Shown here piece by piece: positions 19,539 to 39,876 of a DNA stretch of 64,000 nucleotides. The stretch is from Spirochaetales bacterium (GTDB taxonomy: Bacteria; Spirochaetota; Spirochaetia; UBA9216): positions 124,001-188,000 of the forward strand of contig JAEKNX010000001.1 of NCBI GenBank assembly GCA_016839055.1. The letters are read 5' to 3'. Below the pieces are notes generated by a model that made no database searches, was not told where the DNA came from, and saw only the letters and a list, made by a program, of their open reading frames with translations. A program made the position numbers and the translations under genes. Numbering within the stretch: position 1 is the first letter of the stretch; each line of letters starts with the position of its first letter.

Positions 19539-20219
19539 TTCCAATTTGAAGGAACAGAATAATTAACGTGGTACTGGTGGATTAACATCATTCAACGGGA
19601 ACGGATTAAAGATAAATTGAACCATTTCTTAAAGGATTCAATTTTCAAATACATACATTTTGATTGTTGATGGCAATATTTATAGATCTCTTCTTATGTT
19701 CAAAAACAATTTTTAGGGAGATTCATCAGGAAGGTATTGGTTTATGTTTTCTATGCAAGATACTTCGTCTAATGAATGCTTCTTTGAGAATCAAGAGGCT
19801 AGGGAGTTTTATTATTTTCAGCAGGCTCTTTTGTTAATAACCTGATTGATCAAATCAAAGATAAATATAACTTATCTGCTGCTGAAATCGGTTTGAATGT
19901 GAAAAATGGCAGTGTTGAGGATCTTGTATGTTTCGGATATCATGAATGCGTCCGATAATATTACTGGAGATATTACTGGAGAAAAAGATGATAAGAATTG
20001 CCGATAAAGATGATGTAAAACAGATCTGCGACATTTATAACTATTATGTAGAGAACACGATTATCACCCTTGAAGAGATTGCTGTTTCTTCAAAAGAAAT
20101 GGAGAGACCGAAGCGCGTTTCGTTTTTCAATGGTTTATTTTGATAGTACAGAGGGCGCAGTCCCGGGTCCGAGAAAACATATATGAAAGGTTTTTACATC
20201 TTTTAAGAGGATTTCGATA
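19539..20219. other. Long spacer with gene fragments
   Basis: This stretch has no intact gene. It holds a GNAT fragment (19988-20143) and a short plus-strand open stretch (about 19808-19951, encoding SAGSFVNNLIDQIKDKYNLS... and ending CVR-stop) that looks like the tail of a lost gene I cannot name. The 12-bp sequence ATATTACTGGAG is tandemly duplicated at 19958-19981. The codon-like fragments suggest deletion scars. Confidence 0.5.
19988..20143 (+). pseudogene. Truncated GNAT acetyltransferase (phosphinothricin-acetyltransferase-like N-terminus)
   Basis: MIRIADKDDVKQICDIYNYYVENTIITLEE is the N-terminal strand-helix of PAT/YncA-type GNAT enzymes, which are about 160-180 aa. After residue ~39 (SKEMER) the sequence diverges and stops at 20143, so the acetyl-CoA site is missing. 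TGGAG upstream of the ATG is within a 12-bp tandem duplication. Any peptide made would be inactive. Confidence 0.65.
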
Positions 20220-24294: not shown

Positions 24295-25338
24295 ATGATT
24301 AAACAGAAAATAGCAAGATTAATAATATCACTTGTACTGGTTCTTGGATCTTTTGTTTTAGGTTCCTGCGTATCAATCACAAATAAGACAATTACCGGTG
24401 AACAATCCGGTGAAATTTGGTCTGAAGACAGTATTTACGATAGGGAGTCAGTTCCCGCTTTGGTCAAAAAGCAAAACGAAGATTTTAAAATATTGTTATT
24501 CTCTGATATACAGCTTGATTCCTTTCTGAATGACGCTATCGCACTTGAACTTGTCGATACTCTTGTTAAGGAAGTCAGACCTGATATGATAATGACAGCC
24601 GGCGATAATACAGCTTGGATATTTGCAGATGATTTGACACTGAAATTGATTAGTCAGATGGAGAGTTACAATATCCCCTGGGGTGTTACCTTGGGTAATC
24701 ATGACTCTGAGGGGAGTGCGGACAGAATCTGGCATGGGAATCAGTATGAAAATGCTGCAAATTCGTTGTTCAGTTCAGGCCCCTCTAATATTCAGGGTAT
24801 CGGAAACTATTCTGTGAATATTGAAGATGAAGACGGAAATATCATCTATACACTGATAATGATGGATTCCAATGTAAAAAGAGCCTATGAAGATGAAAAT
24901 GATTATGATTATATTTACGACAATCAGATTGAATGGTATGAGTGGCTAATTAAAGGAATAACTTCCTCCGAAAATAAAGTACTTCCTTCAATGCTTTTTT
25001 TCCATATACCCCTTCCGGAATTCAAAGATACTGCCGATGCATGGAAAAACAATGAAATTGGTGAGGCTTATGCCTTCGGTGAAATAAGAGAAAGGGTTTG
25101 TTGTCCTCCGGTTAATACAGGGCTCTTCGACAGCGCTATGAACCTGGGAAGTACAACCCATATATTTTGCGGACATGACCACGTTAATAATCTATCTGTT
25201 GATTGGAAGGGCATCAGGCTGACATATGGTCTGAAAACAGGTCCTGCCAGTTATTCAAATAGTGACATGCAGGGTGCAACGCTAATCACAATCATGGCCG
25301 ATGGTAATGAAGTGAAGGTAGAGCATATTTTCAAATAA
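24295..25338 (+). CDS. Lipoprotein metallophosphoesterase
   Basis: A lipoprotein signal (LIISLVLVLGSFVLGSC, Cys at residue 25) is followed by a calcineurin-type phosphoesterase: LLFSDIQLD (metal Asp), TAGDNTAW, GNHDSEG, FFHIPLPEF and FCGHDHVNN. It resembles the YvnB/DUF-type acid phosphatases that remove phosphate from extracytoplasmic substrates. The 347-aa length is typical. It is monocistronic and ends in an AT-rich hairpin; the upstream side is the MITE-like element. Confidence 0.88.
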   Translation: MIKQKIARLIISLVLVLGSFVLGSCVSITNKTITGEQSGEIWSEDSIYDRESVPALVKKQNEDFKILLFSDIQLDSFLNDAIALELVDTLVKEVRPDMIMTAGDNTAWIFADDLTLKLISQMESYNIPWGVTLGNHDSEGSADRIWHGNQYENAANSLFSSGPSNIQGIGNYSVNIEDEDGNIIYTLIMMDSNVKRAYEDENDYDYIYDNQIEWYEWLIKGITSSENKVLPSMLFFHIPLPEFKDTADAWKNNEIGEAYAFGEIRERVCCPPVNTGLFDSAMNLGSTTHIFCGHDHVNNLSVDWKGIRLTYGLKTGPASYSNSDMQGATLITIMADGNEVKVEHIFK

Positions 25339-25379: not shown

Positions 25380-27137
25380 CTACTCAGGAGGGGGCGGTAC
25401 CTGATATTGTTCACCAGGTTCAAGCCTTTTTATATTTTTTAAATCCGGATTCATTTTTTTAATCTCTGAGAGGAGATCATGCCATAATGTTTTTTCCCTG
25501 TAAAAATGTATGTACAATTTCCAGAATGACTGACCCTCTTTAACTGTCCAGATCCAACCATCATTACCTGCTGGGTTAAGATCCCATTCGAGGAGTTCCG
25601 GTGATAATCTGTCTTGGTAATCGGGGCTTTGTGTTGTTCCTGTTGCTGATGTATCATTTGTAATTCTGATTGTTTGAGCCAGCTCTTCAGTACTCAATGC
25701 CGGAGTGGCGCCGGATTCTTCTTCGGTGTCTTTCAATAATACTACCAGGATGAGTATTAGCAGTCCAAGAATAGCGGCAGGAACTATGAAGAGTTTCCTG
25801 TTTATTTTTTTTCTTGTTTTATTAACATGGACGGGAAGCGGTTTAAAGTTCTCCTGGGAATCTGGTTCTGGGGATGACAATGGGAGCTTATTCTCTATAA
25901 TATCCGGTTTATTATCATCCTCGTTTATTGTAATAAGCAGCTCCTCAATGAAACTAGGAAACCTATTGAATTTTATTTTAAATTGTTCGTTTTTCATTTT
26001 TTCTGATAAATGCTCTGTCACAGCTTGTTCGGTGTCGTCGCTTCTCTCACCTTCCTTCTTTTTTTGTAATTTTTGGAGCTGATTCCCTAAGGGGTTTCTA
26101 CTATCGGAACTCAGCGTTTCATTTTCAAGTGCTGAACTTTCAGAAACTGGTTCTTTTGTGGTTTGGCGAGACAATATATGGCCGATTTTTTCGGGAAGAT
26201 CGGGTCTTGGAAAGAGGGTGGCCTCCTTGGAAGAATTCTGTTCGGGCTCTGTTTTGCTTGTCTCTCGTTTTAATGAGGTTTCGGGAACATGTTGTCCCTC
26301 TGGATTAACTGTCTGTTGGTCAGCTTGGCTATCCACCTGGCGCCTGTCATTTTTTTTTAGGTAGTTCTTTTTTAGTTCCATAGAATCTGAGATCCTAATG
26401 TTTTTAATATCATCTTTTTCGAGGCTGGCATCGGTTGTTTTGGGATAGTTTCTTGCTGTATAAGAAATAACAGGTTCATCCTCCAGATTTAGACTCTCGG
26501 CTAGGATTTTATCTCCCTTTTCGGCTACTTCTTTAATCAGCTCTATCATGTTTTTTAAATATGCATATATTCCTTCATTTACTTCTTCTGGAAGATTTGC
26601 ATCTATTCTTGAGAGTAGAAGGGCAATCATAACCTTATTTTGTTCATTAAGATCCATGCGGCTCAGCAGCACCAGGAGATAGAGAGCAGTATTCTCTGGA
26701 GAGGCTGTGGATGGGGTTTCTTCTATTATCAGGGCTTTAGCGATAGCTGCTTTGAATGAGAAGAAAGATCTGATTGTGAGATCAAAGGTTAAATCGGGAG
26801 GCAGAATTTTCTCGTTTCCGAAGAAATGATGAAATAGAAATTGCATGTCAACAAGATTTATTCTACCCTTTAACATCGGCAGAATTAGTTTGGAGATAGA
26901 TTCATCCTCATTCTTCATATAAAAAAGCAGAACTATCAGAATTAAATTTTCATAGGTTGATTCCGGACGGGTGTCGAGTCTTTGATATATTATGTTAGTG
27001 TTCTCTGCTATTTCTTCCTTGGAAAACTTATTAGCATAAGAGATGATCATACTGTCTGTTTGAGTACACCACCCATGAACCTCCGCGAAAGATATTATTT
27101 CACTAATCGCAGGTTGTAAATTCCCGTATTTCTGCAT
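25380..27137 (-). CDS. Unknown membrane protein with a C-terminal LysM-like domain
   Basis: The 585-aa protein is not a family I know. Residues 1-215 are helical and soluble in character, and about 215-450 are polar and probably disordered. One membrane helix follows (KLFIVPAAILGLLILILVVLL). The last ~60 residues resemble a LysM fold (WTVKEGQSFWKLYIHFYREKTLWHD, then LEPGEQYQVPPPP). With no N-terminal signal, the large N-terminus would be cytoplasmic and the LysM part periplasmic. It stands divergent from the kinase-phosphatase gene string and is likely part of that system. Confidence 0.8.
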   Translation of the reverse strand: MQKYGNLQPAISEIISFAEVHGWCTQTDSMIISYANKFSKEEIAENTNIIYQRLDTRPESTYENLILIVLLFYMKNEDESISKLILPMLKGRINLVDMQFLFHHFFGNEKILPPDLTFDLTIRSFFSFKAAIAKALIIEETPSTASPENTALYLLVLLSRMDLNEQNKVMIALLLSRIDANLPEEVNEGIYAYLKNMIELIKEVAEKGDKILAESLNLEDEPVISYTARNYPKTTDASLEKDDIKNIRISDSMELKKNYLKKNDRRQVDSQADQQTVNPEGQHVPETSLKRETSKTEPEQNSSKEATLFPRPDLPEKIGHILSRQTTKEPVSESSALENETLSSDSRNPLGNQLQKLQKKKEGERSDDTEQAVTEHLSEKMKNEQFKIKFNRFPSFIEELLITINEDDNKPDIIENKLPLSSPEPDSQENFKPLPVHVNKTRKKINRKLFIVPAAILGLLILILVVLLKDTEEESGATPALSTEELAQTIRITNDTSATGTTQSPDYQDRLSPELLEWDLNPAGNDGWIWTVKEGQSFWKLYIHFYREKTLWHDLLSEIKKMNPDLKNIKRLEPGEQYQVPPPPE

Positions 27138-27200
27138 AATTTTAATGTCGACTTATTTTGTTAAAAAATTGGTTTTTTTAAATAGTTTTCATTCATATTA

Positions 27201-27228
27201 TTGCATATAGGATAATATTTCATATACT
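27201..27228 (+). promoter_or_regulatory. Promoter for the phosphatase-kinase gene string
   Basis: TTGCAT (27201-27206), a 16-bp spacer and TATACT (27223-27228) form a good sigma-70-like promoter, 41 bp upstream of the first gene at 27270. The four plus-strand genes behind it are nearly contiguous. Confidence 0.55.
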
Positions 27229-27269
27229 TAAATTGGTGGTGAGCCGATTCTTTGTTTAAGGCATAGATA

Positions 27270-27980
27270 ATGATAGAAAACTCTCAGTTCGACGATATTA
27301 CTGAATTACTTCTGCATAATAGTCAACTGATTTATGACGGAATACTAGGAACGGCGACTCCTGTCCAGGTTGGTGCATCGATGGCATTCGCGAAATACAT
27401 CCAGCATGTTGGAATAACAACTAAAAATTATACTATATTTTTAAAAACTCTTGAAACAAACAATAAGTGGATAGTCGATGAGCTAGTGGGGCGTTATGAT
27501 CCAAGACTTCTTTTCACAAGTATAAAAGCAAATTCAAGACTTATAAAATATGCGTTTGAACAGCTTTCAATTTGGCACCCCGGACAGATTTATGAAAAAG
27601 TTCTGCTTGCCATTCTCGGGATTATTGAATATTCCTATTTTAAACCAGATGATGGGTATAATATTTATAGACTTGATATTCAGGATCTTCATAACCTCGG
27701 AAAATTCCTTAATGAGGACAGGGATCAAGAGGATGTCATAAACGCAACAATCCTTGATTGTCTGGATAGGATTACTCTTATCGGAAGCTATGATCATGAC
27801 ATAACAAAAAACAATATAGCTAATCATTCTTTCAACATTCGTGACGCATATTTTGACCACACAAAATCACTTGGAGATATAATTCCCCGGGTTCTTTTGA
27901 TAAGAGTGAAGCGGGAAGACCGGGAAGTCGCTCCGCCCGAAAATTACCTTGATTTCCGGCAAAATAAATCTGATGATTAA
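27270..27980 (+). CDS. Member A of a local paralogous ~235-aa protein family
   Basis: I do not recognise the family. The protein (236 aa) is a soluble, mainly helical product and is the most divergent of four paralogs here (others at 31995, 32751 and 33539). Shared blocks include NYTIFLKTLETNNKWIVDELVG (NYPIFLKxLGVxNHWVIDSLIG in the others), YxKxLLAILGI, GYNIYRLDIQDLHNLGKFL, ATILDCLDRI and FNIRDAYFDHTKSLGDIIPRVLL. It is first in a string with a PPP phosphatase, a kinase-like gene and a pseudokinase gene, 14 bp before the phosphatase. Confidence 0.8.
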   Translation: MIENSQFDDITELLLHNSQLIYDGILGTATPVQVGASMAFAKYIQHVGITTKNYTIFLKTLETNNKWIVDELVGRYDPRLLFTSIKANSRLIKYAFEQLSIWHPGQIYEKVLLAILGIIEYSYFKPDDGYNIYRLDIQDLHNLGKFLNEDRDQEDVINATILDCLDRITLIGSYDHDITKNNIANHSFNIRDAYFDHTKSLGDIIPRVLLIRVKREDREVAPPENYLDFRQNKSDD

Positions 27981-27994
27981 TAATAGGAATAGAC

Positions 27995-28912
27995 ATGAGT
28001 ATAAAGGAAGAGGAAATCTATAAAGTTGTTGATATAGTCAGGAAGAATCGGTATAGGATCCCAAACAGTTATGGTAATCCCGGAGGCCTGATTGATCTTC
28101 TAAATGTTGATAAACCGGTATTAGTAATTGGTGATCTGCATGGAGCGATTGATAACCTTATTTCTATCGTTGAGCATGAGGATAATATACAAAGACTAAA
28201 GAACGGAGAAATAATCTTAATCATCATCGGAGATGGTATGCATAATGACCAGACTGGTCAGATGCGGGAGATGCAGAGTTCGCTTCTGGTTCTTGAAGAG
28301 GTTTATCGTTTAATTCTTGAATATAAGGAAAGCGTCCTGTATATAAGGGGCAATCATGATACCTTTGAGGAGAGGCTTGCCAAGAGTTCGATTCAACAGG
28401 GTCTTGAGTTTCGTAATTACCTCTTGGAACACAGGAGTGAGTCTTATATCGAAGCGACCTCCGAGTTCTTTGATTCTCTTCCGTTTATGATCCTCGGTGA
28501 AAAATATATAATCACCCATGCTGGTCCAATACGTAACGGCGCCTCAAGACATGAAATAATTGATATTGAGGATAATCCTGATTACGTCCATCAGCTAGTA
28601 TGGAACCGGCTTCATGAGTTCCGGGGTACACCTAGCTTGAAGGAATATGATGAGAGGGACATCCGGAAGATGATAGAGAAGCTAAAGATGCCTGATGATT
28701 CGTTCTTTATTGTTGGACATAACCCCATGTGGAGTACAGGTGATAAAACGGGGATATGGAGAGATATAATCGGGATTAAAAATCATATCATTATTTATAC
28801 TAATATCCCAACACGGGGCCCATATCTCTATATTGAGAATGGTACGGTAACTGAAAAATTTGCTATTGAATCATCAGGAAAACTGGAGGGAAATTATGTC
28901 TGGAGAAATTAA
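27995..28912 (+). CDS. PPP-family metallophosphatase
   Basis: The 305-aa protein has the full PPP metal-site motifs: GDLHG (about residues 46-50), GDGMHND (79-85), GNHD (119-122), ITHAG and VGHNPMW. These are Ser/Thr protein phosphatases or Ap4A-type hydrolases. No signal or membrane segment is present. Its 3' end overlaps the kinase-like gene by 17 bp, so the two are translationally linked. The context of a kinase-like and a pseudokinase gene favours a protein phosphatase role. Confidence 0.88.
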   Translation: MSIKEEEIYKVVDIVRKNRYRIPNSYGNPGGLIDLLNVDKPVLVIGDLHGAIDNLISIVEHEDNIQRLKNGEIILIIIGDGMHNDQTGQMREMQSSLLVLEEVYRLILEYKESVLYIRGNHDTFEERLAKSSIQQGLEFRNYLLEHRSESYIEATSEFFDSLPFMILGEKYIITHAGPIRNGASRHEIIDIEDNPDYVHQLVWNRLHEFRGTPSLKEYDERDIRKMIEKLKMPDDSFFIVGHNPMWSTGDKTGIWRDIIGIKNHIIIYTNIPTRGPYLYIENGTVTEKFAIESSGKLEGNYVWRN

Positions 28913-29825
28913 AAATATGCGCTTGTCAGATCAGGTAAAAGACACCGCAATGAGAAAATATCTTTACCTCGATCTTGACATTGGAGAGTTGATAGATAGG
29001 ATGCGGAATTTGAAGCTTACCGATATAGGGAATGATGAACACGCCCCCTTTAATGCCAAGGTAAGGGGTTATACCGGCGCCATAGATGAGGAAGGCAATC
29101 CCTGGCTGATAAAAGAAGTGGGACTTGCAGAGGCTCAGGAACTCAGGATTCAGGAAATTGCTTATTTTATGGATTTCATTCTAAACACTCCTGCCGCGCC
29201 TGCAATCCTGCTTAATTATGATGGAAGGCTGTACCGTGCTACCAAGCATGTTATCAATGCCATGCAGATAAGCAGTTACAATTATATGGAACCTCCTTAT
29301 ATTAAGATATTGGCAAATGACCTTCTTAACAGATGGCTCTTCTTCGATGAAGATCGTAATCCGAATAATTATCTTGTAAAACACGACTTAGATGATTCTC
29401 CCTATATTGTTGTAATTGATTATAATAAGGTTGATTTAGAAACAGAGGGTATGAAAATATGGGGACTCGAAAACAAATTCGGTTGGCATCGTAAAGAGAA
29501 AACAAGATTCCTGACCTTGTTGAAACCGGGTAATTTTGACAATCTCTGTCTCGAAGATTTTGAATCAAGACTTCAGCTTTTTGATACTATAGATGAGAAA
29601 ACCATCAGCGGGATATGTCAAGCTGCCTTTGTAGGCGATATATTGGAGGATGCTGAGGCTTCATGCAAAAAAATAACTAATAATCTGCTTGTCCGGAAGA
29701 ATTATCTGACAGAATATTTTCGAAAGTGGTTTATAGAGAGAGATGAGACAAAAGAGAAAGAGATTGACGATCGCTACGCAGATCTTGGGCAGTCATTTCT
29801 TGATTACTATAAGCGAGAAAGCTGA
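28896..29825 (+). CDS. Putative kinase of the PI4K/HipA-like fold
   Basis: The 309-aa protein has the outline of an atypical kinase: WLIKEVG (candidate ATP Lys 73), LRIQEIAYFMDFIL (helix C Glu region), LNRWLFFDEDRNPNNYLV (catalytic loop, Asp 153 and Asn 157/158) and YIVVIDYNKVD (metal Asp 175). That order matches PI3/PI4-kinase-like and HipA-type kinases. No family name can be given. ATG 28896 is chosen over an upstream start because GGAGGG precedes it; it overlaps the phosphatase gene by 17 bp. Opposing kinase and phosphatase activities from overlapping genes suggest a reversible phospho-switch. Confidence 0.65.
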   Translation: MSGEIKNMRLSDQVKDTAMRKYLYLDLDIGELIDRMRNLKLTDIGNDEHAPFNAKVRGYTGAIDEEGNPWLIKEVGLAEAQELRIQEIAYFMDFILNTPAAPAILLNYDGRLYRATKHVINAMQISSYNYMEPPYIKILANDLLNRWLFFDEDRNPNNYLVKHDLDDSPYIVVIDYNKVDLETEGMKIWGLENKFGWHRKEKTRFLTLLKPGNFDNLCLEDFESRLQLFDTIDEKTISGICQAAFVGDILEDAEASCKKITNNLLVRKNYLTEYFRKWFIERDETKEKEIDDRYADLGQSFLDYYKRES

Positions 29826-29830
29826 TTTCA

Positions 29831-31948
29831 ATGATACGAAGCGGAGGTATAATAAACAACTGTTTTATTATTCAGGATGAAATAGGCAGGGATCAGTATT
29901 TTATTTATTACCAGGCAAAGGCTTTATATTCTGCTTCAGAATTCGTAATCAGTTTTGTACGTGCGGATCTAAAAGATATCCCAATCAATATTCAGACAGA
30001 GGTTCTTGAGTTGATGAAATCTATCTATAAGATAGAGAGTTCGAATATTGTTGCTCCCTTTGAGATGGGGTGTTATGAGAATCTGCTCTATTTATCTTAT
30101 CGTAGTTTTGAATTTGAATATCTTGATGTATATCTTGCACAATCACCTTCATTAACGACCGAGTTTTGTGCAAGTGTTATCTCCAGGATATTACATGGGC
30201 TCCTTGTCCTGGATAGATTTTCTGCATGGCATGGTCTTCTAACATCCCATCGGGTTTGTCTGCCGTTGAAAGGACTTAAGGAGGGGCTTGCCTGTGTTTC
30301 TGGAGTTTTTGATCAAACATTCTCAGGATATTGTGAAGCAGATCCAACAGAAGATTTGAGGTTAAAAGAATGGTTTGCTCCACTAAACAGCGATGATTTC
30401 AGGAACCAATCAAAATATGAATCCAGGAAAAGAGATCTTTTTTCTATTTCAAAAATTATGGAGTTATTACTTTCTTTTGTTAATAGCAAAGAAAAAAATT
30501 CCCGCCAATATCAGAGCCTGGTAGAATTTTCTGAAAAAATTACTCCCTCGAAGGTTTCAATATTAAATCTTCTTGAAATAGAACTTCAGTTTGAGCAGAT
30601 AGTAAGAGAAAAGAATGTGATAAATCTTTGGAATGATGAAGAGATAACCAAGAGATATAAGGATATGCTGGGCTCTGATATCCATTCTGATAGTGTAGAG
30701 TGGAATTCCAAAGAAAATAAATATTTAGATAAGGACGATAGCATGCCAGTTCGGCGTGAAGGTTCTGAGACAAAAAGTAAAACTTTTATAGAATCAGATA
30801 AATTACCAGCAGCACCGAATTTGTATGATGAGTCTGGAAAGCGGCTTGATAGAGAATATTCCGAGCGGGGAGGGCAATTCTTCACGTTCGGCAAATCCAA
30901 TATGAATAAAGAAAACGCTGAAGCTGTCGAAAGCGCGGCGGAAGGTAACAATAAAAATTATAGTAATGAAGATGATGGTAAGAAGATCCGGAAATCTGAT
31001 AAAGATAAAAGTGAGCTCTCAGGCAATGCGGAAAGCACTTCGGGTTTTAAACATAGATTGAAACTTCGAATAGGTAAACAGGGGCAGATCCGTGAGGACG
31101 GCCGGGTTTCAAAGGTAATTGAAAAGCTCAATAACCACAATATTGACCACCTGCAAAAAGATGATCAGCCTGAAATTCAACTTAAAACCCGGAAGTCTGA
31201 GAATGTGTCTGAGGACATTTCACGTACTTATACAAAGCGGGAAGAGCCGCCAATAGAGTTTGATTTTGGTGATAGAGAGAGCACGGAAATTTCAGATATC
31301 ATTGATGGTTCGCCCAGAGAATATAGCACAGAAACGAGTAGGCTAGGCGAACATTCTGCAGGATCGCAAGGTGATTTTTGGGATCCTGAAGAGCGGAAGA
31401 ATGATGGTGATGCAATAGATTATGATTTTAATACAATAACAGGAACCGGACCTGCAATTATGGATGGCAGCAAGATTGATGTTGACGACAAGACCTCGGC
31501 AGTCGAAAGAAGAGGAAGAAAGAATCAACGTAATGATGACATGGTTTTTCCGACAGAGGTTGATGGAACAGCCGAAACTTCGGTGCTGAAGAACGAACCA
31601 ATTATTCCGGAACGAAAAATCGAAGACTATCCTATTCAGCAGGAGCATCATGAATCCTTGAAAATAATGCCTTCCTCCAAGGTCCGGCGGGATTCCGAAG
31701 AGCGGTCACAGTTGTCTTCGCAAGTCTCTTTTAAAGAAGGCGGCAACGAGGTGGAAGGCGAAATTCTGGAGCTGAAAGCAGTGAAAGATGAGGATGATCT
31801 CCAGAATAAAGGGCCCGTACCGAAGAGATCTTCCCCCCTGGAAGCTCTCTCTGGCCTTGAATCTGAGAAAAGGGGAGGAAGGTGGAAACGTTTTTTCGAC
31901 GGAATAAAGAGGATTGCTGAAAAGGTCGTCTCGGGTTTCCGGAAATAA
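29831..31948 (+). CDS. Kinase-fold protein without catalytic residues, with a long acidic tail (probable pseudokinase)
   Basis: Residues 1-240 follow the Ser/Thr kinase pattern: YFIYYQAKALYSASEFVISFV (N-lobe), IYKIESSNIVAPFEMGCYENLLYLSYRSF (helix C to hinge, split here as one block) and ISRILHGLLVLDRFSAWHGLL at the HRD position. The ATP Lys (VISF), HRD Asp (HGL) and DFG motif are not present. Residues ~240-675 are charged, low complexity and probably disordered. The last 25 residues (GRWKRFFDGIKRIAEKVVSGF) could form an amphipathic membrane-binding helix. It begins 5 bp after the kinase-like gene. It may be a scaffold or phospho-substrate of the module. Confidence 0.65.
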   Translation: MIRSGGIINNCFIIQDEIGRDQYFIYYQAKALYSASEFVISFVRADLKDIPINIQTEVLELMKSIYKIESSNIVAPFEMGCYENLLYLSYRSFEFEYLDVYLAQSPSLTTEFCASVISRILHGLLVLDRFSAWHGLLTSHRVCLPLKGLKEGLACVSGVFDQTFSGYCEADPTEDLRLKEWFAPLNSDDFRNQSKYESRKRDLFSISKIMELLLSFVNSKEKNSRQYQSLVEFSEKITPSKVSILNLLEIELQFEQIVREKNVINLWNDEEITKRYKDMLGSDIHSDSVEWNSKENKYLDKDDSMPVRREGSETKSKTFIESDKLPAAPNLYDESGKRLDREYSERGGQFFTFGKSNMNKENAEAVESAAEGNNKNYSNEDDGKKIRKSDKDKSELSGNAESTSGFKHRLKLRIGKQGQIREDGRVSKVIEKLNNHNIDHLQKDDQPEIQLKTRKSENVSEDISRTYTKREEPPIEFDFGDRESTEISDIIDGSPREYSTETSRLGEHSAGSQGDFWDPEERKNDGDAIDYDFNTITGTGPAIMDGSKIDVDDKTSAVERRGRKNQRNDDMVFPTEVDGTAETSVLKNEPIIPERKIEDYPIQQEHHESLKIMPSSKVRRDSEERSQLSSQVSFKEGGNEVEGEILELKAVKDEDDLQNKGPVPKRSSPLEALSGLESEKRGGRWKRFFDGIKRIAEKVVSGFRK

Positions 31949-31980
31949 AAAAGGCTCCGTTCCAAACGGAACAAAGCCTT
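31945..31980 (-). terminator. Terminator for the three-paralog operon
   Basis: On the minus strand AAGGCTTTGTTCC pairs with GGAACGGAGCCTT (two mismatches) around a GTTT loop, followed by TTTTTT. It follows the minus-strand gene ending at 31995 and lies just after the convergent pseudokinase gene stop. Confidence 0.8.
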
Positions 31981-31994
31981 CAGGTTTATTGATG

Positions 31995-32687
31995 TTATTT
32001 TACATCAATAGGTTTTACTTCATACTTGGTGTAATCATCAACTTCTAAAAGAAGATCAGGTATAGCCTCATTCAATGATTTAGTCATATCCAGGAATTTG
32101 CCGCGGATGTTATTAGCCTGAGCCGCAACGGCCATAACCTTTTCATTGGCTCCTTCCAGTCTGCCGGGGTCTAACATCGATGCTACCTTATCCAGGATAA
32201 GAAGAATGCTCTGGTTTAGGGCATAACTCTGATCCTGTTTTTCATCCAGATGTTTACCTAAATTATTAACATTAGTAGTATCCAGGGGGAAAATTTTGTA
32301 ACCTTCCTCCGGATTGAAATAAGTCTGATTTAAGAGACCAATTATTATTAAAAGGCTTTTCGGATAAACGCTTCCGCGTTTATTCTGTGTAATAATACGA
32401 AAGCTTTCCTTTAAAATAAAATAATTAGGCTGTACAAGCTGGAAGAACGTTGTTTCTTCGCCATCACCAATCAGACTGTCAATTACCCAGTGATTGCTGA
32501 CACCAAGAATTTTCAGAAAGATTGGATAATTATCAGGATGCACTCCTACATGATGCAGATAAGAGGCATATGCTCTTGTTACCGCAACGCCGATAGGATT
32601 ATTGCATTTGATACAATCTTTTAAGAACCCAAGTTCTAGCTTATCAAGGTCAGCTTCTTGCCAACCAGCTTCTTCCCATGTACTCAT
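31995..32687 (-). CDS. Member B of the local paralogous ~235-aa family
   Basis: This unrecognised 230-aa helical protein is the last gene of a three-gene minus-strand string. Family blocks are AYASYLHHVGVHPDNYPIFLKILG, NHWVIDSLIG, QPNYFILKESF, GYKIFPLDTTNVNNLGKHL, NQSILLILDKV and NNIRGKFLDMTKSLNEAIPDLLL. It has no signal peptide. It is separated from member C by 63 bp. Confidence 0.82.
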   Translation of the reverse strand: MSTWEEAGWQEADLDKLELGFLKDCIKCNNPIGVAVTRAYASYLHHVGVHPDNYPIFLKILGVSNHWVIDSLIGDGEETTFFQLVQPNYFILKESFRIITQNKRGSVYPKSLLIIIGLLNQTYFNPEEGYKIFPLDTTNVNNLGKHLDEKQDQSYALNQSILLILDKVASMLDPGRLEGANEKVMAVAAQANNIRGKFLDMTKSLNEAIPDLLLEVDDYTKYEVKPIDVK

Positions 32688-32750
32688 TCTCGTACTCCTT
32701 AGGATGCCTGTCCTTGAATGACCAGGACAGGCAGTTTAATCCAATTGTTA

Positions 32751-33524
32751 TCAGCCTTCTTCTTCAGGCGCAACTTCTGGTTCTGCTGCTGCCTTTGGCT
32801 TTGCTTTAGGAGCGGGTTTGTTTCCGTCTTCAAGTAAAGGCTTTCGCTCTCTTGGGTCTACTTCTGGATCCAGATTTGGTTCGGTCTTCAGAATTACATC
32901 GGGAATAACTTGTACAAGCTTCTTTGTAGAGTCGAAGAAGTTATTTCTGATATTGTGCGCATGCACTGCCAGATCTTCCATTTCTTCATCCTTACCCTGT
33001 CCCTCAAGTTCACTGACCTTATCGAGGATATCGAGAATGCTTCTGTTCAGAAGATCATCCTGTCCCTTGTCTTCGATGAGATGTTTGCCTAGGCTGTTGA
33101 TATCTGCAATTGTTGGTGGATAGATAATATATCCATCAAGAGGATTGTTATAGGTTGCCTGAAAAACGCCTAAGATGATGCCGAGTGTTTTAGAGTAGAT
33201 TTCAGCAGGGTGGTACTTTGCCAGAAAGCTGAAACATGTTGCAACTATAAAATAGTTCGGCTGAATTGAGCTCATGAATAGAAACGGATCTCTTGTTCCA
33301 AGAAGCGCATCAATTACATGATGATTTCTGACTCCCAGCACCTTGAGGAAAATTGGATAGTTGCTGCTTGTTATACCGATGCTGTTTAGATAGTTCGCGT
33401 ACGTAAGCGCGGCTTCTACAGCTTCCATTGTACGGCAACCCATTATACCTTTAAGAAGATTATATTCAATATTCGCAATTTCTACCTGTGTCCAGGACTG
33501 TCTTTTTTCAAAAAGTTCTTTCAT
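32751..33524 (-). CDS. Member C of the local paralogous ~235-aa family, with an Ala/Pro/Lys tail
   Basis: This 257-aa unrecognised protein shares all family blocks (NYPIFLKVLGVRNHHVIDALLG, SSIQPNYFIVATCF, YSKTLGIILGVFQATY, GYIIYPPTIADINSLGKHL, RSILDILDKV, HNIRNNFFDSTKKLVQVIPDVIL). It has an extra C-terminal tail rich in Lys, Pro, Ala and Glu (KPAPKAKPKAAAEPEVAPEE) that is probably disordered. It lies 14 bp downstream of member D. Confidence 0.82.
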   Translation of the reverse strand: MKELFEKRQSWTQVEIANIEYNLLKGIMGCRTMEAVEAALTYANYLNSIGITSSNYPIFLKVLGVRNHHVIDALLGTRDPFLFMSSIQPNYFIVATCFSFLAKYHPAEIYSKTLGIILGVFQATYNNPLDGYIIYPPTIADINSLGKHLIEDKGQDDLLNRSILDILDKVSELEGQGKDEEMEDLAVHAHNIRNNFFDSTKKLVQVIPDVILKTEPNLDPEVDPRERKPLLEDGNKPAPKAKPKAAAEPEVAPEEEG

Positions 33525-33538
33525 TTTTTTCTCCTAAC

Positions 33539-34237
33539 TCAACCTATAAATACCTTGTCCGGGGTAATCTCCTTGGCAATATAATCTGATTTAACAAGGA
33601 GTACCTGAGGAATTATATCTTCCATCTTCTTTCTCTTATCAAAGAAGAAGGTCCTGATGCTGTTAGACTGCCGGGCCATCTGTTCGATACTATTGTTTTC
33701 AGTCGTACCGGCTAGAGCACCTATTCTGTCAAGAATATCGAGGATACATCTGTTATTAGGGTCTTCCTGCCCAAGTTCTTTATTAAGATGTTTTCCGAGG
33801 TTGTTAACATCATTGATTGAGACACTATAGATACGGTATCCGTCTTTAGGCGAACTGAATGCAGCCTGAAGCACTCCTAGGATTATTGCCAGGGTCTTCG
33901 GGTAGATGCCGCCGGGATGCCAATTTGTAAGCAACTGAAATGCTGCCAATAAAAGGTAGTTATTTGGATGAATCGAACTTAGAAGTAAAAAGGGATCTTT
34001 ATCTCCGATAAGCGAGTCAATAACCCAATGGTTTTCAACTTCCAATAATCTGAGGAACAACGGATAATTATCATTATCCAGCCCTGATAGACGTAAAAAC
34101 TGAGCATAACTGATGGCTGATTCGACTGCCTCAACAGTTCTACATCCTATCATTCGTTCGATGATGTTTATTTCAACTTCCATTATCGATTCTTTGTTCC
34201 ATGCATCTTCAATAATCTTTTCTTTTCCTTGATCCAT
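33539..34237 (-). CDS. Member D of the local paralogous ~235-aa family
   Basis: This 232-aa unrecognised protein is the first gene of the three-paralog operon, behind a good promoter (34288-34316). It carries the family blocks (AISYAQFLRLSGLDNDNYPLFLRLL, NHWVIDSLIG, SSIHPNNYLLLAAF, YPKTLAIILGVLQAAF, DVNNLGKHL, RCILDILDRI, NSIRTFFFDKRKKMEDIIPQVLLV). It has a GGAGG ribosome binding site. The three products are similar enough to have arisen by tandem duplication and could form homo- or hetero-oligomers. Confidence 0.82.
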   Translation of the reverse strand: MDQGKEKIIEDAWNKESIMEVEINIIERMIGCRTVEAVESAISYAQFLRLSGLDNDNYPLFLRLLEVENHWVIDSLIGDKDPFLLLSSIHPNNYLLLAAFQLLTNWHPGGIYPKTLAIILGVLQAAFSSPKDGYRIYSVSINDVNNLGKHLNKELGQEDPNNRCILDILDRIGALAGTTENNSIEQMARQSNSIRTFFFDKRKKMEDIIPQVLLVKSDYIAKEITPDKVFIG

Positions 34238-34287
34238 GTAAATCCTCCTGATTCACAAAAAAAGTATTCCATTTGTTTATCTATTTA

Positions 34288-34316
34288 AGTATTAAGATTT
34301 GATTAACCAATGTCAA
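34288..34316 (-). promoter_or_regulatory. Promoter for the three-paralog operon
   Basis: On the minus strand TTGACA (34316-34311), a 17-bp spacer and AATACT (34293-34288) form a strong sigma-70-like promoter, about 50 bp upstream of member D. Confidence 0.6.
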
Positions 34317-34403
34317 ATTTTTAGACTTAATATTTTTAAAAAACAAGTTTTTTCATAAAAATGGCCTGTTTTTTATGGTTTTTACTATTCAGAAGTTATA
34401 AAT

Positions 34404-34432
34404 TTGCTTTTTCAGCCGTGAAAATCGATAAT
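34404..34432 (+). promoter_or_regulatory. Promoter for the zinc-ribbon membrane protein gene
   Basis: TTGCTT (34404-34409), 17 bp and GATAAT (34427-34432) form a good promoter 32 bp upstream of the start. It is divergent from the paralog promoter, so both face away from a 90-bp AT-rich core. Confidence 0.5.
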
Positions 34433-34464
34433 TATAGTGAAATATTAACTTGTAAAGGGTGTTT

Positions 34465-34992
34465 ATGATAGAAATCACCATGTACGCTATAATAGGGATT
34501 CTTCTTGTTATTTCCATTCAATTAGGCATTCTGATAAGCAGATCAGGCCGAGCCGGTTTTCTCAATCAAGCATCAGGACCGCAGGCCAGTGGGCCTACTG
34601 TGAATGTTAATATAGATAGAGACGGCAGTATACGTAAGCAGCGTGAGGGGGAAGCCGATATTTCTTCTGCAGATCACCGAGCGGAAATCGAAATTAAAGG
34701 GCAGGATGAACCTGAACAAAGCGCGGAGTCAAGTGAGACTGAAGAATCTGATATTGAAGATGAAGAGGCGTCAGCTTATGAACCGTCTGAGGATGCAATT
34801 GCACGAAGAGAGGAGCAGGAAAAGCTTTCAGAAGAACTTCATAAGCGAAATGCTAAGAAACATGGAGGGGATCAGTCTGCAATGGCTTCTGATAAGTCGA
34901 GCCTTTCTATGCAAATCGTCAAATGCCCGGATTGTGGCGCCGAGAACAGTGCAATACGCAGGAACTGCTTTAACTGCAATAAAACCTTATAG
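34465..34992 (+). CDS. Small membrane protein with acidic linker and C-terminal zinc ribbon
   Basis: The 175-aa protein has one N-terminal membrane helix (YAIIGILLVISIQLGILI), a Glu/Ser-rich linker of about 110 residues, and a C-terminal four-cysteine ribbon (CPDCGAENSAIRRNCFNCNKTL has CxxC...CxxC, at about 153-173). I do not recognise the family. Divergent from the three-paralog operon, it may be a membrane anchor or adaptor of the same system. ATG 34465 follows the site AAAGGG. Confidence 0.7.
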   Translation: MIEITMYAIIGILLVISIQLGILISRSGRAGFLNQASGPQASGPTVNVNIDRDGSIRKQREGEADISSADHRAEIEIKGQDEPEQSAESSETEESDIEDEEASAYEPSEDAIARREEQEKLSEELHKRNAKKHGGDQSAMASDKSSLSMQIVKCPDCGAENSAIRRNCFNCNKTL

Positions 34993-35150
34993 TTTTAAGG
35001 ATGAAAGATAATATCTATCTGCATTCGGTCAAGGTGATCTATTATTCAAGACGGCCGATTGATTTTTTTTAAAAGTTGACAAGACCTCCTGGATTATCGA
35101 ACATTAAAAAATGGTATCTGTAATTCTGCTTATCATTGAGAGGAGGCCGG

Positions 35151-38090
35151 ATGAAAAACTATCATTTTACAATAGGAACAAGGCTGGCGCTTAATTTCTC
35201 TTTTTTTCTGATAGTCATACTGATATTCGGCGGAGTCTTTTTGTTTCAGATAACAAAGATTTCTTCAGTTTTCAGAGATTTCTATGAGCATCCCTATGCC
35301 GTCAGTAATACCGTGAGGGAGATTGAGACTGATATTATCAGGATGCACAGGGCCATGAAAGATTTAGCATTATCAGAGACTCAGACGGATATTTTAAGAT
35401 ATTCAATTTTGATTGATAAACTGGAAGAAGCAGTACTCGATGATTTTTCAATTGTGTATGACAGATATCTAGGCGATAAAACCGAAGTTGACGAGGCCCT
35501 GGATGCATTTCGTGAATGGAGCGAAATAAGAAATGAGGTCTTTAGATTAAAGACGGCCGGAAATACTGCCGCAGCCGCTGCTTTAACAAGTGGGGCGGGG
35601 GCGGTTCATGTGGAGATTCTTGAATATAAGATTGCCGCGCTCGTTGATTTTGCTGAGAGAAAGGCCGGATTGTTCTACAGTGAAGCCGAGGATACAAGAA
35701 AGGCAAATTTTAGTAGCCTGTGGCTGCTCTGCGCCCTCGCACTCATCCTCGGTAGCCTTATTACAATAACCGCCACACGAAGCATCACCGTTCCGCTCCT
35801 GCGGATAGTCGAGTGGATTCGTGAGATCTCAACAGGTAAACTGATAAGAGAAATATCGCTGGACAGACGAGATGAGATAGGCACTCTGGCTGATTCCTGC
35901 CGAAGAATGCAGGAGAATCTTACACATAAATCAGAAATAGCGAAGATGATTGCCGCGGGAGATTTTTCCGAGCGGGTTGTTGTTGGATCGGCGGATGATG
36001 AGGTTGCACTATCCATAAATCAAATAGCGGATAATTACAGTAAGATTACAACCGAATATAATCTGCAGAACTGGCTGAAGACGGGACAGAATCTCCTGAA
36101 TGAGGATGTTGTAGGTGTACAGGAATCTGAAGAGTTCAGCCGGAAGGTAGTCTCAAGGCTTTGCAATCATCTTGGCGCACAGATAGGTGCGTTCTACATT
36201 GCGGACGCTGGAACGGCCGAACTGCGGCTGTCAGGCAGTTACGCGCTGAATCTCAGAACAAAGACAAATAATGTAATTCTTTTCGGTGAGGGTCTTGAGG
36301 GACAGTGCGCAATAGAAAAGAAGTGTATTTTAATTACCGAGGTGCCTGAAGATTTTTTTAAAATAGAGACCGGCAGCGGTGATTGTGCGCCTGTAAATGT
36401 GGCGGCATTTCCCATATTATATGAAGGGGAACTCATTGCCGTAATTGAATTGGGGTCTATAAATAAGTTCACGAGTAGGGAACTAAGTTTTCTCGAGCTT
36501 ACCGCTGATATTATTGGAACGGGTCTTAACTCAGTGATGATAAAGGTTGAAACTGAAAAATTATTGCTGGAAACGCAGCGACAGTCCACCGAGCTTAGTG
36601 CTCAGCAGGATGAGTTGTGTCAGAGCAATGAGGAACTCGAACAGCAGGCGAAGGCATTAAGAGCCTCAGAAGCGACTCTTCAGATGCAGCAGGAAGAGCT
36701 GAGGGTAACCAATGAAGAGCTGGAAGAGAATACTCGGGAGCTCAAGAGTCAGAAAGACACTCTGAAGAAAAAAAATAACGAACTTGATCGGGCTATGAAG
36801 GAAATAGCAGTGAAAGCTGAGGATCTCAGGAAGTCAAGCAGTTATAAAAGTGAGTTTATAGCAAACATGTCTAATGAGCTTCGAACTCCGCTTAACAGCA
36901 TTATGATCCTGTCAAAACTTCTCAGCCGGAATGCGGATGATACCCTATCGGATAAAGAGAAGGAATTTGCCGAGACAATTTATTCTTCGGGTTCTGATCT
37001 GCTTCATCTGATAAATGAAATTCTCGATCTCTCGAAGATAGAGGCTGGAAAGATGGAAATTCTAAATGAAAATTTTTCCATCAAACAGCTGCTGTCTTCT
37101 TTGACCCGCAGTTTTCAGCAGATAGCTGATGAAAAGGCAATCGAATTTATTCTGAAAATAGAAGCTGATGTGCCCCGGAGTATTAACTCGGACTTGAAAC
37201 GGGTGGAGCAGATACTGAAGAATCTTCTGTCCAATTCATTCAAGTTTACAAAGAGCGGCAGCGTTATTCTTGGGGTGAAGGGCGGTGATTCGGGAATGGT
37301 AAGATTTTACGTTACCGATACCGGCATAGGGATTCCCAAGGAAAAGCAGAAACTTATTTTTGAGGCTTTCAGGCAGGCAGACGGAACCACAAGCCGACAA
37401 TACGGCGGTACCGGACTGGGACTGTCTATTTCACTCGAACTCTCCAAGCTCCTTGGGGGAGAACTCGAGATAATAAGTGAAGAAGGAAAAGGCTCTGAGT
37501 TCAGTTTATATCTTCCTGATACTGAAAGTTCCAGGAAATTAGAGCATAGTGTCCTGCCTGCAGCTCCTGGCGCTTCTGATGAAAAGATGGACAGTATTAT
37601 TGATGACCGACTTAGTATTGGGGAAGGCGACCGTTCGGTTCTGATTATCGAGGATGATCCAGTCTTTGCAAAGGTTGTCCTCGATTTTGCCAGGAAGAAG
37701 GAGTTCAAGGGAATCATTGCCCCCGATGGAGAAACTGGTCTTCACTTTGCTGATTATTATACTCCGAGTGCAATTATTCTTGATATCGGTCTTCCGGGTA
37801 TAGACGGCTGGGAGGTAATGGAGCGGCTGAAAAGCAGCGAGGCTACCAGGTATATTCCTGTTCATTTTCTCACCGCCGGTGATGATTCCAATGAGGCTTA
37901 CAGGCACGGAGCGGTAGGCTTTCTTCATAAACCGGTGAAACCTGAAGATCTCGATAATACCTTCGGTGATATTGCTGAAATTCTTGTCGGCAGGATGAAG
38001 AAGCTGCTTCTTGTTGAGGATGATGACGCTGAACGCAGAAGTTTAATTAAAAGGAAAAGACCTCGAAATAACCGCGGCAGCCTCGGGTAG
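35151..38090 (+). CDS. Hybrid sensor histidine kinase, H-box His replaced and 3' end frameshifted
   Basis: The 979-aa frame has a membrane helix (about 12-32), a helical-bundle periplasmic sensor, a second membrane helix (about 186-206), HAMP, GAF (about 310-460), a coiled coil, a DHp domain, an ATPase domain (NLLSNSFKFTKSG, DTGIGIP, GGTGLGLSIS) and a receiver (LIIEDD, LDIGLPG). The H-box reads MSNELRTP: Asn 575 replaces the phospho-accepting His. A second receiver begins LLLVEDDDAERRSLIK, then loses frame at 38049-38053. The remainder is in the next entry. ATG 35151 follows GAGGAGG. Confidence 0.85.
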   Translation: MKNYHFTIGTRLALNFSFFLIVILIFGGVFLFQITKISSVFRDFYEHPYAVSNTVREIETDIIRMHRAMKDLALSETQTDILRYSILIDKLEEAVLDDFSIVYDRYLGDKTEVDEALDAFREWSEIRNEVFRLKTAGNTAAAAALTSGAGAVHVEILEYKIAALVDFAERKAGLFYSEAEDTRKANFSSLWLLCALALILGSLITITATRSITVPLLRIVEWIREISTGKLIREISLDRRDEIGTLADSCRRMQENLTHKSEIAKMIAAGDFSERVVVGSADDEVALSINQIADNYSKITTEYNLQNWLKTGQNLLNEDVVGVQESEEFSRKVVSRLCNHLGAQIGAFYIADAGTAELRLSGSYALNLRTKTNNVILFGEGLEGQCAIEKKCILITEVPEDFFKIETGSGDCAPVNVAAFPILYEGELIAVIELGSINKFTSRELSFLELTADIIGTGLNSVMIKVETEKLLLETQRQSTELSAQQDELCQSNEELEQQAKALRASEATLQMQQEELRVTNEELEENTRELKSQKDTLKKKNNELDRAMKEIAVKAEDLRKSSSYKSEFIANMSNELRTPLNSIMILSKLLSRNADDTLSDKEKEFAETIYSSGSDLLHLINEILDLSKIEAGKMEILNENFSIKQLLSSLTRSFQQIADEKAIEFILKIEADVPRSINSDLKRVEQILKNLLSNSFKFTKSGSVILGVKGGDSGMVRFYVTDTGIGIPKEKQKLIFEAFRQADGTTSRQYGGTGLGLSISLELSKLLGGELEIISEEGKGSEFSLYLPDTESSRKLEHSVLPAAPGASDEKMDSIIDDRLSIGEGDRSVLIIEDDPVFAKVVLDFARKKEFKGIIAPDGETGLHFADYYTPSAIILDIGLPGIDGWEVMERLKSSEATRYIPVHFLTAGDDSNEAYRHGAVGFLHKPVKPEDLDNTFGDIAEILVGRMKKLLLVEDDDAERRSLIKRKRPRNNRGSLG

Positions 38091-38097
38091 AGAGGCG

Positions 38098-38790
38098 ATG
38101 GAGCTGATAAACAAACAAAAATTTAACTGTATAGTTCTTGATCTTGGCCTCAAAGACATTTCAGGCTTTGAGATCCTTTCATTTATTCGCAGCAGCGGCC
38201 TGGTTACCATTCCGGTAGTGGTGTATACAGGCAAAGATCTGAATGAGGAGGAGAGGCTTGAGCTGATGAGATATTCAGAATCAGTTATTATAAAGAGTGT
38301 TCGGTCGCCGGAAAGACTGCTTGAGGAGACTGCGCTCTTCCTCCACCGGGTTGTATCGGAACTTCCCCGGATAATGCAGCGCGAGATTAAGATGGTCCGC
38401 GAAAATAATTATTCGCTGAAGAATAAAAATGTTCTACTAGTTGATGATGACATGAGAAATGTATTCGCCCTGTCTAGTGTTCTTGAGAAGAATGGAATAG
38501 AGGTTATTGTCGGGAAGAATGGAAAAGACGCAATTCAGAAACTCGAAGCCGCGGCGAATGTTGATCTGATTCTGATGGATATAATGATGCCTGAGATGGA
38601 CGGCTATGAGGCCATAAGCATAATAAGGAAAAAGCCGAAGTTTAAGCATCTCCCTATAATTGCTCTGACTGCAAAGGCAATGAAGGGAGATCGGAATAAA
38701 TGTATTGAAGCAGGTGCGAATGACTATCTATCCAAACCTGTTGAGGTTGACAAACTCATGAGCCTCCTGCGGGTCTGGCTGCATGATTGA
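38098..38790 (+). CDS. Detached receiver domains (continuation of the hybrid kinase after a frameshift)
   Basis: This 230-aa frame holds the rest of the second receiver (NCIVLDLGLKDISGFEIL, VVVYTGKD) and a complete third receiver (VLLVDDDMRNVFALSSVL, LILMDIMMPEMDGYEA, IIALTAKAM, LSKPVEVDKL). The frame is open further upstream to the shift point, giving GKDLEITAAASGREAMEL, which completes the second receiver. So the gene was one hybrid kinase of about 1210 aa. A separate product from ATG 38098 would lack the first third of the second receiver. A sequencing error in the AAAA run is possible. Confidence 0.75.
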   Translation: MELINKQKFNCIVLDLGLKDISGFEILSFIRSSGLVTIPVVVYTGKDLNEEERLELMRYSESVIIKSVRSPERLLEETALFLHRVVSELPRIMQREIKMVRENNYSLKNKNVLLVDDDMRNVFALSSVLEKNGIEVIVGKNGKDAIQKLEAAANVDLILMDIMMPEMDGYEAISIIRKKPKFKHLPIIALTAKAMKGDRNKCIEAGANDYLSKPVEVDKLMSLLRVWLHD

Positions 38791-38862
38791 GATAAGTGTA
38801 GAGGATTAGCATTGCAGGAGCGCATGTACTATAGTTGAATAATAATATGATTGGTGGGAATG

Positions 38863-39876
38863 ATGAATAAAGAAATTAAAATACTGCTCGTGGATGACGT
38901 CAAAGCTAATCTTCTTTCCATCAGTAATCTTCTCGAAAGTGATGATTATGATATTTATACTGCCGAAAGCGGTAACCAAGCTCTGTCGATGATGCTTGAT
39001 CATCAATTTGCTTTGGTTCTGCTTGATGTGATGATGCCCGAGATGGATGGTTTTGAAGTTGCTGAGATAATGAAGGGTCGTGAGTGTACCCAGCAGATTC
39101 CGATTATTTTTATGACCGCGATGGATAATGATGATGATTTCATCTTCAGGGGCTATAAAACAGGCGCGATAGATATCCTGTTTAAGCCTGTTAATCCTGA
39201 AGTACTGAAGGGCAAGGTGAGAGTTTTCTGTGAACTCCATAGGCAGAAGGAGCTGTTGAACACTTCCCTCGCCGACAAAGAGTTTCTGATGAAAGAAATT
39301 CATCATCGAATTAAGAATAATCTCATTATGATTAACAGTTTCATAAATCTTCAGAAGACTTCTTTGCGGACTGAAGGAGAGCTCGACCTCCTGTCCGAGG
39401 TTGAGAGTAGAATCACAATTATAATGCTGATTCATGAAAAACTGTATACAGATGGAAATTACCAGGATGTTGACATTCGGGATTATCTCTCCGAAATATC
39501 AAAAAATCTACTTGAGAAATTCAACTCCAACCGAAAAATAGAGCTTGCCCTAGACATACAAGACCTCAGAATACATGTTGACACTGCCATTTCACTCGGG
39601 CTTCTCTTGACAGAAATGATGACAAATACAATTAAGTACGCCTTTCCGAATGATTCGCCCGGCCAAATTACCGTTACTTTAAAGAACTCCGATTGTGCGG
39701 AAGAATTTATATTTACCTATGGTGATGACGGGATAGGGATAATGGAAGAAAAAATCAAGAGTAACAACAATTCATTGGGTATTACTTTGATAAAGGGCAT
39801 TTCTCAGCAGCTGAGAGGGGACTTAGAGATTGACCTTCAGTCAGGATTAAAGTATAAGCTTGTTTTCGCCATCTGA
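38863..39876 (+). CDS. Response-regulator/histidine kinase (REC-HisKA_2-HATPase)
   Basis: The 337-aa protein has an N-terminal receiver (ILLVDDVKANLLS, LVLLDVMMPEMDG with the acceptor Asp, LFKPVNPEVL), then a HisKA_2 dimerisation domain with EIHHRIKNNLIMINSFINLQ (His present) and a HATPase_c domain (EMMTNTIKYAFP, GDDGIGI). It is cytoplasmic. It lies 72 bp after the hybrid-kinase receivers and may be their partner. ATG 38863 or 38860 is the start; GGTGGG upstream favours 38863. Confidence 0.88.
   Translation: MNKEIKILLVDDVKANLLSISNLLESDDYDIYTAESGNQALSMMLDHQFALVLLDVMMPEMDGFEVAEIMKGRECTQQIPIIFMTAMDNDDDFIFRGYKTGAIDILFKPVNPEVLKGKVRVFCELHRQKELLNTSLADKEFLMKEIHHRIKNNLIMINSFINLQKTSLRTEGELDLLSEVESRITIIMLIHEKLYTDGNYQDVDIRDYLSEISKNLLEKFNSNRKIELALDIQDLRIHVDTAISLGLLLTEMMTNTIKYAFPNDSPGQITVTLKNSDCAEEFIFTYGDDGIGIMEEKIKSNNNSLGITLIKGISQQLRGDLEIDLQSGLKYKLVFAI

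Follow-up and report, generated by a model that had tools for sequence, protein, structure and literature searches.

A conserved island of four paralogous proteins with a predicted kinase, phosphatase and pseudokinase in Spirochaetota and other bacteria

A 64,000-nucleotide stretch of a 5.0 Mb Spirochaetota genome (assembly GCA_016839055.1, contig JAEKNX010000001.1, positions 124,001 to 188,000; hereafter the window) contains at positions 25380-34992 nine genes, coding for four paralogous proteins (P1 to P4), a PPP-family phosphatase (PPP), a putative kinase (KIN), a predicted pseudokinase (PSK), and two predicted membrane proteins, LysM-TM and ZnR. These genes are associated with one another far beyond chance. 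An initial annotation, made from the sequence alone, had described them as an island of nine genes in three transcription units; each of the nine open reading frames (ORFs) lies where it had been placed (Table 1) and the grouping is borne out, but by strand there are four units rather than three, LysM-TM (minus), P1-PPP-KIN-PSK (plus), P4-P3-P2 (minus), and ZnR (plus). The LysM-TM and P1 genes are thus divergent, as are P4 and ZnR, and PSK and P2 are convergent. The G+C content of the island, 39% as against 43% in the remainder of the window, does not deviate strongly.

Table 1. Genes and other features of the island, in window coordinates.
Feature	Position	Strand	Comment
LysM-TM	25380..27137	-	Conserved N-terminal domain of ~245 aa, disordered linker, one transmembrane segment, C-terminal LysM-like domain
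P1, helical-family paralog	27270..27980	+	First gene of the P1-PPP-KIN-PSK operon
PPP-family phosphatase	27995..28912	+	Metal ligands all retained: GDLH, GD, GNHD, H175, H242
KIN, predicted PI4K-II/CtkA/HipA-fold kinase	28896..29825	+	Motifs DEDRNPNN and IDY; overlaps the PPP gene
PSK, predicted pseudokinase, 705 aa	29831..31948	+	Pseudokinase domain, long disordered middle, C-terminal basic amphipathic helix WKRFFDGIKRIAEKVVSGFRK
Terminator-like hairpin, 14-bp stem	31950..31981	.	Between convergent PSK and P2
P2, paralog	31995..32687	-	
P3, slowly evolving core paralog	32751..33524	-	Charged disordered C-terminal tail
P4, slowly evolving core paralog	33539..34237	-	93% identity to nearest relative, 58-59% in other phyla
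ZnR	34459..34992	+	N-terminal transmembrane segment, acidic linker, C-terminal zinc-ribbon-like CxxC...CxxC

The four paralogs belong, as first described, to one family of proteins of about 235 amino acids (aa), with P1, P2 and P3 sharing 36-43% identity with P4. In a tree of 96 members they resolve into four orthologous groups, each found again from one locus to the next, the branches of P4 and P3 being the shortest. No relatives were found by single-sequence searches of Pfam, NCBIfam, PADLOC, PHROGs and PDB, by family-wide searches of Pfam, NCBIfam and PDB, or in a viral structure library. The AlphaFold2 model of P4 (predicted local distance difference test, pLDDT, 94.6) is all-helical, and appears ARM/HEAT-like in arrangement only. 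Comparison with the nearest relative, locus L055, gives identities of 93% for both P3 and P4, 76% for P2, 73% for KIN, 72% for P1, and 71% for PPP, followed by 54% for LysM-TM, 41% for ZnR and 32% for PSK; to judge from these values, P3 and P4 change at a far lower rate than the enzymes, and evolution is quickest in the anchors and the pseudokinase. Identity of P3 and P4 stays above 80% over several spirochaete families and is 58-59% between phyla; such slow change would be expected of subunits that make many contacts.

The family has some further variants. A short (about 189 aa) and divergent fifth member occurs in L086, where it lies beside LysM-TM, in L053 (9186-9755), and in G280 (C2, 25852-26370); there are in-frame stops within the profile match at two of these three places, and it may be a decaying or a specialised subunit. 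In one group of loci (L070-L083) P1 carries a histone-like, K/A/P-rich disordered tail, and in the SAR324-type loci L101 and L106-L109 P3 has an acidic, tyrosine-rich disordered tail (EEYEEVYEDEEEY); these oppositely charged tails are candidate phosphorylation or binding regions. Some loci show P1 with a long N-terminal extension; we discount these extensions, which are probably start-codon artefacts of longest-ORF calling.

The phosphatase matches Metallophos at 5e-13, and its family profile is closest to BSU1 and PP5. It contains the motifs that define PPP phosphatases (GDxHG, GD, GNH(D/E) and two later metal-binding histidines), and D47, H49, D80, N120, H121, H175 and H242 are retained in all 26 orthologs compared. 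The original PPP assignment is thus upheld, and by its conserved ligands the enzyme is predicted to be catalytically intact. The longest ORF for KIN begins at a TTG codon (28860), but the ATG at 28896 has a good Shine-Dalgarno site and suits the orthologs; from this start the PPP and KIN genes share 17 nucleotides (nt). KIN has no sequence match in Pfam, NCBIfam, PADLOC, PHROGs or PDB as a single sequence, nor does its family profile in Pfam, NCBIfam or PDB. Its AlphaFold2 model (pLDDT 86.3), which was also run through Foldseek, resembles PI4K type II with a Z-score of 15.6 (3.7 Å over 227 residues), followed by CtkA (14.8), the FAM20 proteins (13.3-13.5), HipA (12.4) and CotH (12.3). Three residues are invariant in 32 of 32 KINs, D152, N157 and D174, which from the order of the motifs would be the catalytic aspartate, the metal-binding asparagine and the metal-binding aspartate; K72, the presumptive ATP lysine, is present in 30. 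By modelled fold and key residues KIN therefore appears to belong to the PI3/4K-HipA-CtkA superfamily, in keeping with its description as a PI4K/HipA-like kinase whose gene overlaps that of the phosphatase.

The PSK of the window gives no credible match on its own, but 14 of 21 orthologs match the Pfam Pkinase domain (best 1.3e-28), and the profile of the family matches PrkC-, StkP- and PknB-type kinases with E-values down to 1e-37. The aspartate of the catalytic HRD motif is absent from 20 of the 21 (one has HND), and DFG is absent from all. Since the kinase fold is kept while both aspartates are lost, the protein is by its sequence a Hanks-type pseudokinase, which agrees with its description as a kinase-fold protein without catalytic residues. 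PSKs of the window type end in a basic amphipathic helix (for example WKRFFDGIKRIAEKVVSGFRK and LGLFRRILNWIKRLFRKI), a typical membrane-binding signature that probably serves this role here.

LysM-TM (585 aa) consists of a cytoplasmic domain, one transmembrane segment at residues 450-468, and the LysM-like end that had been noted. Basic residues precede the transmembrane segment, so that by the positive-inside rule the N-terminus is predicted to lie inside and the C-terminus outside. A profile of the C-terminal family matches the LysM of SafA with an E-value of 1e-4 and that of LytE with 0.0066, and the Pfam LysM domain is matched in two of 13 members (4.5e-6). We considered whether the N-terminal domain is a hidden member of the P1-P4 family, and find no support for this (hhalign probability 0.4%). 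For ZnR, described as a membrane protein with a zinc ribbon, the transmembrane segment is present close to the N-terminus, and the C-terminal zinc-ribbon-like end gives only sub-threshold matches. ZnR homologues adjoin PSK or P4 in five other loci (L055, L067, L068, L074 and L078), and the gene therefore seems to be part of the neighbourhood in a subset of relatives.

A scan of the GTDB species genomes with P3 and P4 yielded 60 loci, all from metagenome-assembled genomes (MAGs). These are mostly from Spirochaetota, with others in Desulfobacterales, SAR324/'Deltaproteobacteria', and Acidobacteria/Vicinamibacteria. By profile-based synteny, many spirochaete families share the P1-PPP-KIN order and the P4-P3-P2 set, as well as PSK and LysM-TM, as the idea of a conserved neighbourhood implied; an apparent antisense family, c4, is disregarded, being mechanical antisense ORFs of GC-rich genomes that mask genuine paralogs. 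The attribution of the system to spirochaetes is right for its host but too narrow, as the module is also found in SAR324/Deltaproteobacteria, and P4+P3 in Desulfobacterales and Acidobacteria. Among 393 Spirochaetota genomes the paralogs are present in 20 and KIN in 17, all of them among the 20, and in none of the other 373 (Fisher p=4.5e-27, which is optimistic since the genomes are related, yet the positives span many families). The three with paralogs but no KIN are G386, which has the P4-P3 pair only, and two genomes that are 81-83% complete. A further 24 genomes divide without exception, with KIN present in all eight that have at least four paralogs, and absent from all 16 that have three or fewer. 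In 48 of 48 KIN loci (a few of which are the same genome twice) the PPP gene lies next to that of KIN and shares its strand, with gaps of -242 to +31 nt and an 8-nt overlap most frequent.

The distribution within genera is patchy. Neither G399, which is of the window's genus and 100% complete, nor G063, which shares its genus with the carrier G295, has the paralogs, so the system has evidently been gained or lost as a unit; viewed as an empty site, G399 lacks the left flanking gene, and the right flanking gene is a member of a large histidine-kinase family. A sample of 345 genomes from the phylum of G202 held a single carrier, the centre itself, and no second. This patchiness and the HipA fold invite the suggestion that the island is an anti-phage or toxin-antitoxin-like system in which a HipA-like toxin kinase, KIN, would be countered by PPP as antidote, and PSK has a weak PADLOC match to PD-T4-6 (0.002), probably due to the kinase fold. 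That is the only match to a PADLOC defence model over the island, however, and the island has no HipB- or HipS-type gene, whether between PPP and PSK or at any other place. No copy of the system turned up in viral contigs, phages or plasmids, and there is therefore no sign of a mobile carrier; several genomes share the housekeeping genes that flank the SAR324-type loci (leuS, rsgA and map, by sequence), which speaks against a mobile island or one for defence. Moreover, none of the 393 Spirochaetota genomes has KIN but not the paralogs, and the very slow evolution of P3 and P4 is the opposite of an arms race. We regard such a function as very improbable.

P4 and P3 also occur as a pair without KIN, in Desulfobacterales, Acidobacteria, and one group of spirochaetes. 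In the first two the neighbour is a protein with a response-regulator receiver (REC) domain and a coiled coil, and the REC domain was found in all five tested; in four two-paralog spirochaete loci the pair lies beside genes for HATPase_c_2 and STAS proteins. In L087, L089, L092 and L095 a gene for a conserved protein of about 358 aa without a Pfam match separates P3 from the STAS genes. In the spirochaete MAG locus L064, P4 and P3 are fused in a 442-aa ORF; genes for an AraC-type regulator and LysM-TM come next, and KIN is absent. Because of these KIN-less loci and the fusion near LysM-TM, P4+P3, and not the enzymes, would seem to form the ancestral core, and we read LysM-TM as a partner independent of the enzymes, which may be one of several alternative regulators.

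We favor, at about even odds (a probability of roughly 0.5), the interpretation that the island specifies a phospho-switched cytoplasmic assembly of the paralogs, tethered to membrane and peptidoglycan. P4 and P3, expanded to P1-P4 in this lineage, would assemble as a cytoplasmic complex or polymer. KIN and PPP would act as coupled writer and eraser controlling assembly or partner binding, possibly with the paralogs themselves as substrates; such control is suggested because the active sites are intact and co-inheritance is strict. PSK would be an adaptor, its amphipathic C-terminal helix bringing the complex to the inner membrane, and LysM-TM, by its architecture, could span that membrane and bind peptidoglycan, so tethering the complex to the wall or reporting on it. 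The tie to the cell wall or outer membrane that the initial annotation had suggested would follow from this transmembrane and LysM architecture. P4 and P3 may be the output, with the enzymes as interchangeable regulators, because without PPP and KIN the pair often adjoins another signalling module.

Several observations weigh against this interpretation. The ATP lysine is lost in two of the 32 KINs, and LysM-TM and PSK, which are missing from some loci, are for that reason not obligatory. The LysM end and the zinc ribbon of the window's own proteins score below Pfam thresholds, and the ARM/HEAT likeness of P4 is at background for helical folds (best Foldseek E-value 0.087; VIA Z at most 8.2). 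Another group of PSKs has a different, AAA_16-like C-terminus in place of the amphipathic tail (with an AAA_16 match in two members), and the sole direct sign of interaction is the one P4-P3 fusion in one MAG. Finally, the modelled fold of KIN resembles lipid kinases no less than protein kinases, so that the enzyme might act on a lipid or a small molecule. KIN and PPP would then be a kinase/phosphatase pair acting at the membrane on a headgroup or phosphoinositide-like target, and the paralogs would be effectors. The best structural matches being to PI4K type II, the presence of membrane anchors in the module, and the ability of calcineurin-like enzymes to act on non-protein substrates are all in accord with this, but the protein kinases CtkA and HipA score nearly as high, the PPP profile is closest to protein phosphatases, and a pseudokinase points to protein phosphorylation; we think a lipid or small-molecule role improbable.

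As a bolder version of the phospho-switched assembly, we suggest tentatively that P1-P4 are subunits of an undescribed wall-anchored filament, sheet or shell beneath the inner membrane, with assembly switched by KIN, PPP and PSK, the P4+P3 pair ancestral, and the signalling modules differing by phylum. An unlikely alternative is that the island encodes a structural element, in which a filament, sheet or shell of P1-P4 is fixed to peptidoglycan by LysM-TM, and KIN, PPP and PSK govern its growth for cell shape, stiffness or the positioning of machinery. The extreme conservation of P3 and P4, the four co-conserved paralogs, the charged tails and the wall anchor would all suit such an element, as would the FrzS/AglZ-like character of the coiled-coil REC protein beside P4+P3 in Desulfobacterales and Acidobacteria. 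A monomer model cannot reveal polymerisation, however, and the patchy distribution, including the absence from G399 in the same genus, speaks against a basic role in shape.

The composition of the system is undescribed, as the initial annotation had supposed: no matching described system was found, and the literature in the open library yielded no paper on one of this make-up, which is not proof of absence. Rather than separating into unrelated named families, the paralogs and KIN match no named family in the databases searched, and the enzymes are new branches of known superfamilies. If the phospho-switched assembly is real, several phyla run an unstudied reversible-phosphorylation system with unnamed, very slowly evolving core proteins, and bacterial signalling gains a combination of PI4K/HipA-type kinase, PPP phosphatase, pseudokinase and wall anchor. 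The locus L200 of G395 holds P2-P3-P4, LysM-TM, and P1-PPP-KIN-PSK. This genome is putatively that of Spirochaeta (Sediminispirochaeta) smaragdinae SEBR 4228T, a cultured free-living type strain (PMC3035371), and since it carries the full set, the role of the system is accessible to experiment in a free-living organism that is in culture.

Two sets of neighbouring genes lie next to the island. Directly 3' of ZnR, at 35136-39876 on the plus strand, are three tandem two-component genes, encoding a 4HB-HAMP-GAF-HisKA-HATPase-REC hybrid kinase, a double receiver, and a REC-HisKA_2-HATPase kinase; these may be island members, but have candidate status only. Adjoining LysM-TM, at 24295-25338 on the plus strand, is a second calcineurin-like phosphoesterase (Metallophos 1.9e-11) with a lipoprotein-like N-terminus, which has no match in G399 or G280 and a weak one elsewhere in G395. 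Farther away, the G+C content falls to 29-34% at 18000-20000 of the window (window mean 43%).

Parts of the island resemble known systems. KIN shares with the HipA/CtkA/PI4K-II superfamily its modelled fold (Z 11-16) and the order of the D-x4-N ... ID motifs, but differs in having no sequence match to members in Pfam, NCBIfam or PDB, in always adjoining a PPP phosphatase, and in never being seen without the paralogs. In mycobacterial MviN (with FhaA) a catalytically dead Hanks-type domain serves as a scaffold near the cell wall. PSK has such a domain in common with MviN and other bacterial Ser/Thr pseudokinases, but it has a soluble N-terminal pseudokinase domain, a disordered middle and an amphipathic tail. 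Bacterial Ser/Thr pseudokinases are covered elsewhere (PMC11898655, PMC12599244), and spirochaetes go unmentioned in a review of their families. The FrzS/AglZ-type combination of REC domain and coiled coil matches the architecture of the protein that adjoins the P4+P3 pair in Desulfobacterales and Acidobacteria; that protein accompanies the two-paralog form only and is no part of the window's island. MO25 has an armadillo-type fold. The likeness to the eukaryotic LKB1-STRAD-MO25 complex, in which a pseudokinase and an armadillo-type scaffold surround a kinase (PMC2686265), is in logic only; no homology is shown, and the ARM resemblance in the island is at background level.

The closest analogy in logic appears to be the stressosome, with the eukaryotic pseudokinase-ARM scaffolds a looser one. 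The stressosome is likewise made of paralogous subunits under a dedicated kinase (PMC9237128, PMC6760441), and one could imagine a stressosome-like sensor in which LysM-TM relays the state of the wall or envelope to a paralog complex, and KIN and PPP set and reset a signal to transcription, perhaps through neighbouring two-component genes. The HATPase_c_2 and STAS genes of the four two-paralog spirochaete loci fit this picture, as do the histidine kinase genes that flank ZnR in the window, but the histidine kinases adjoining the island are not a recurring neighbour, and the window's island has no RsbT- or RsbX-type gene. Membership of the stressosome proper is excluded because the paralogs have no STAS domains (there is no match in any of 23 family members, and the P4 model is all-helical), and we think a stressosome-like sensor unlikely. 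The phospho-switched assembly that we favor nonetheless resembles the stressosome (RsbR paralogs and RsbS, the RsbT kinase and the RsbX phosphatase) in combining several paralogous subunits with a kinase and a phosphatase of their own, and would differ from it in its helical paralogs, in a PI4K/HipA-fold kinase and a PPP phosphatase in place of RsbT and RsbX, and in its membrane and peptidoglycan anchors.

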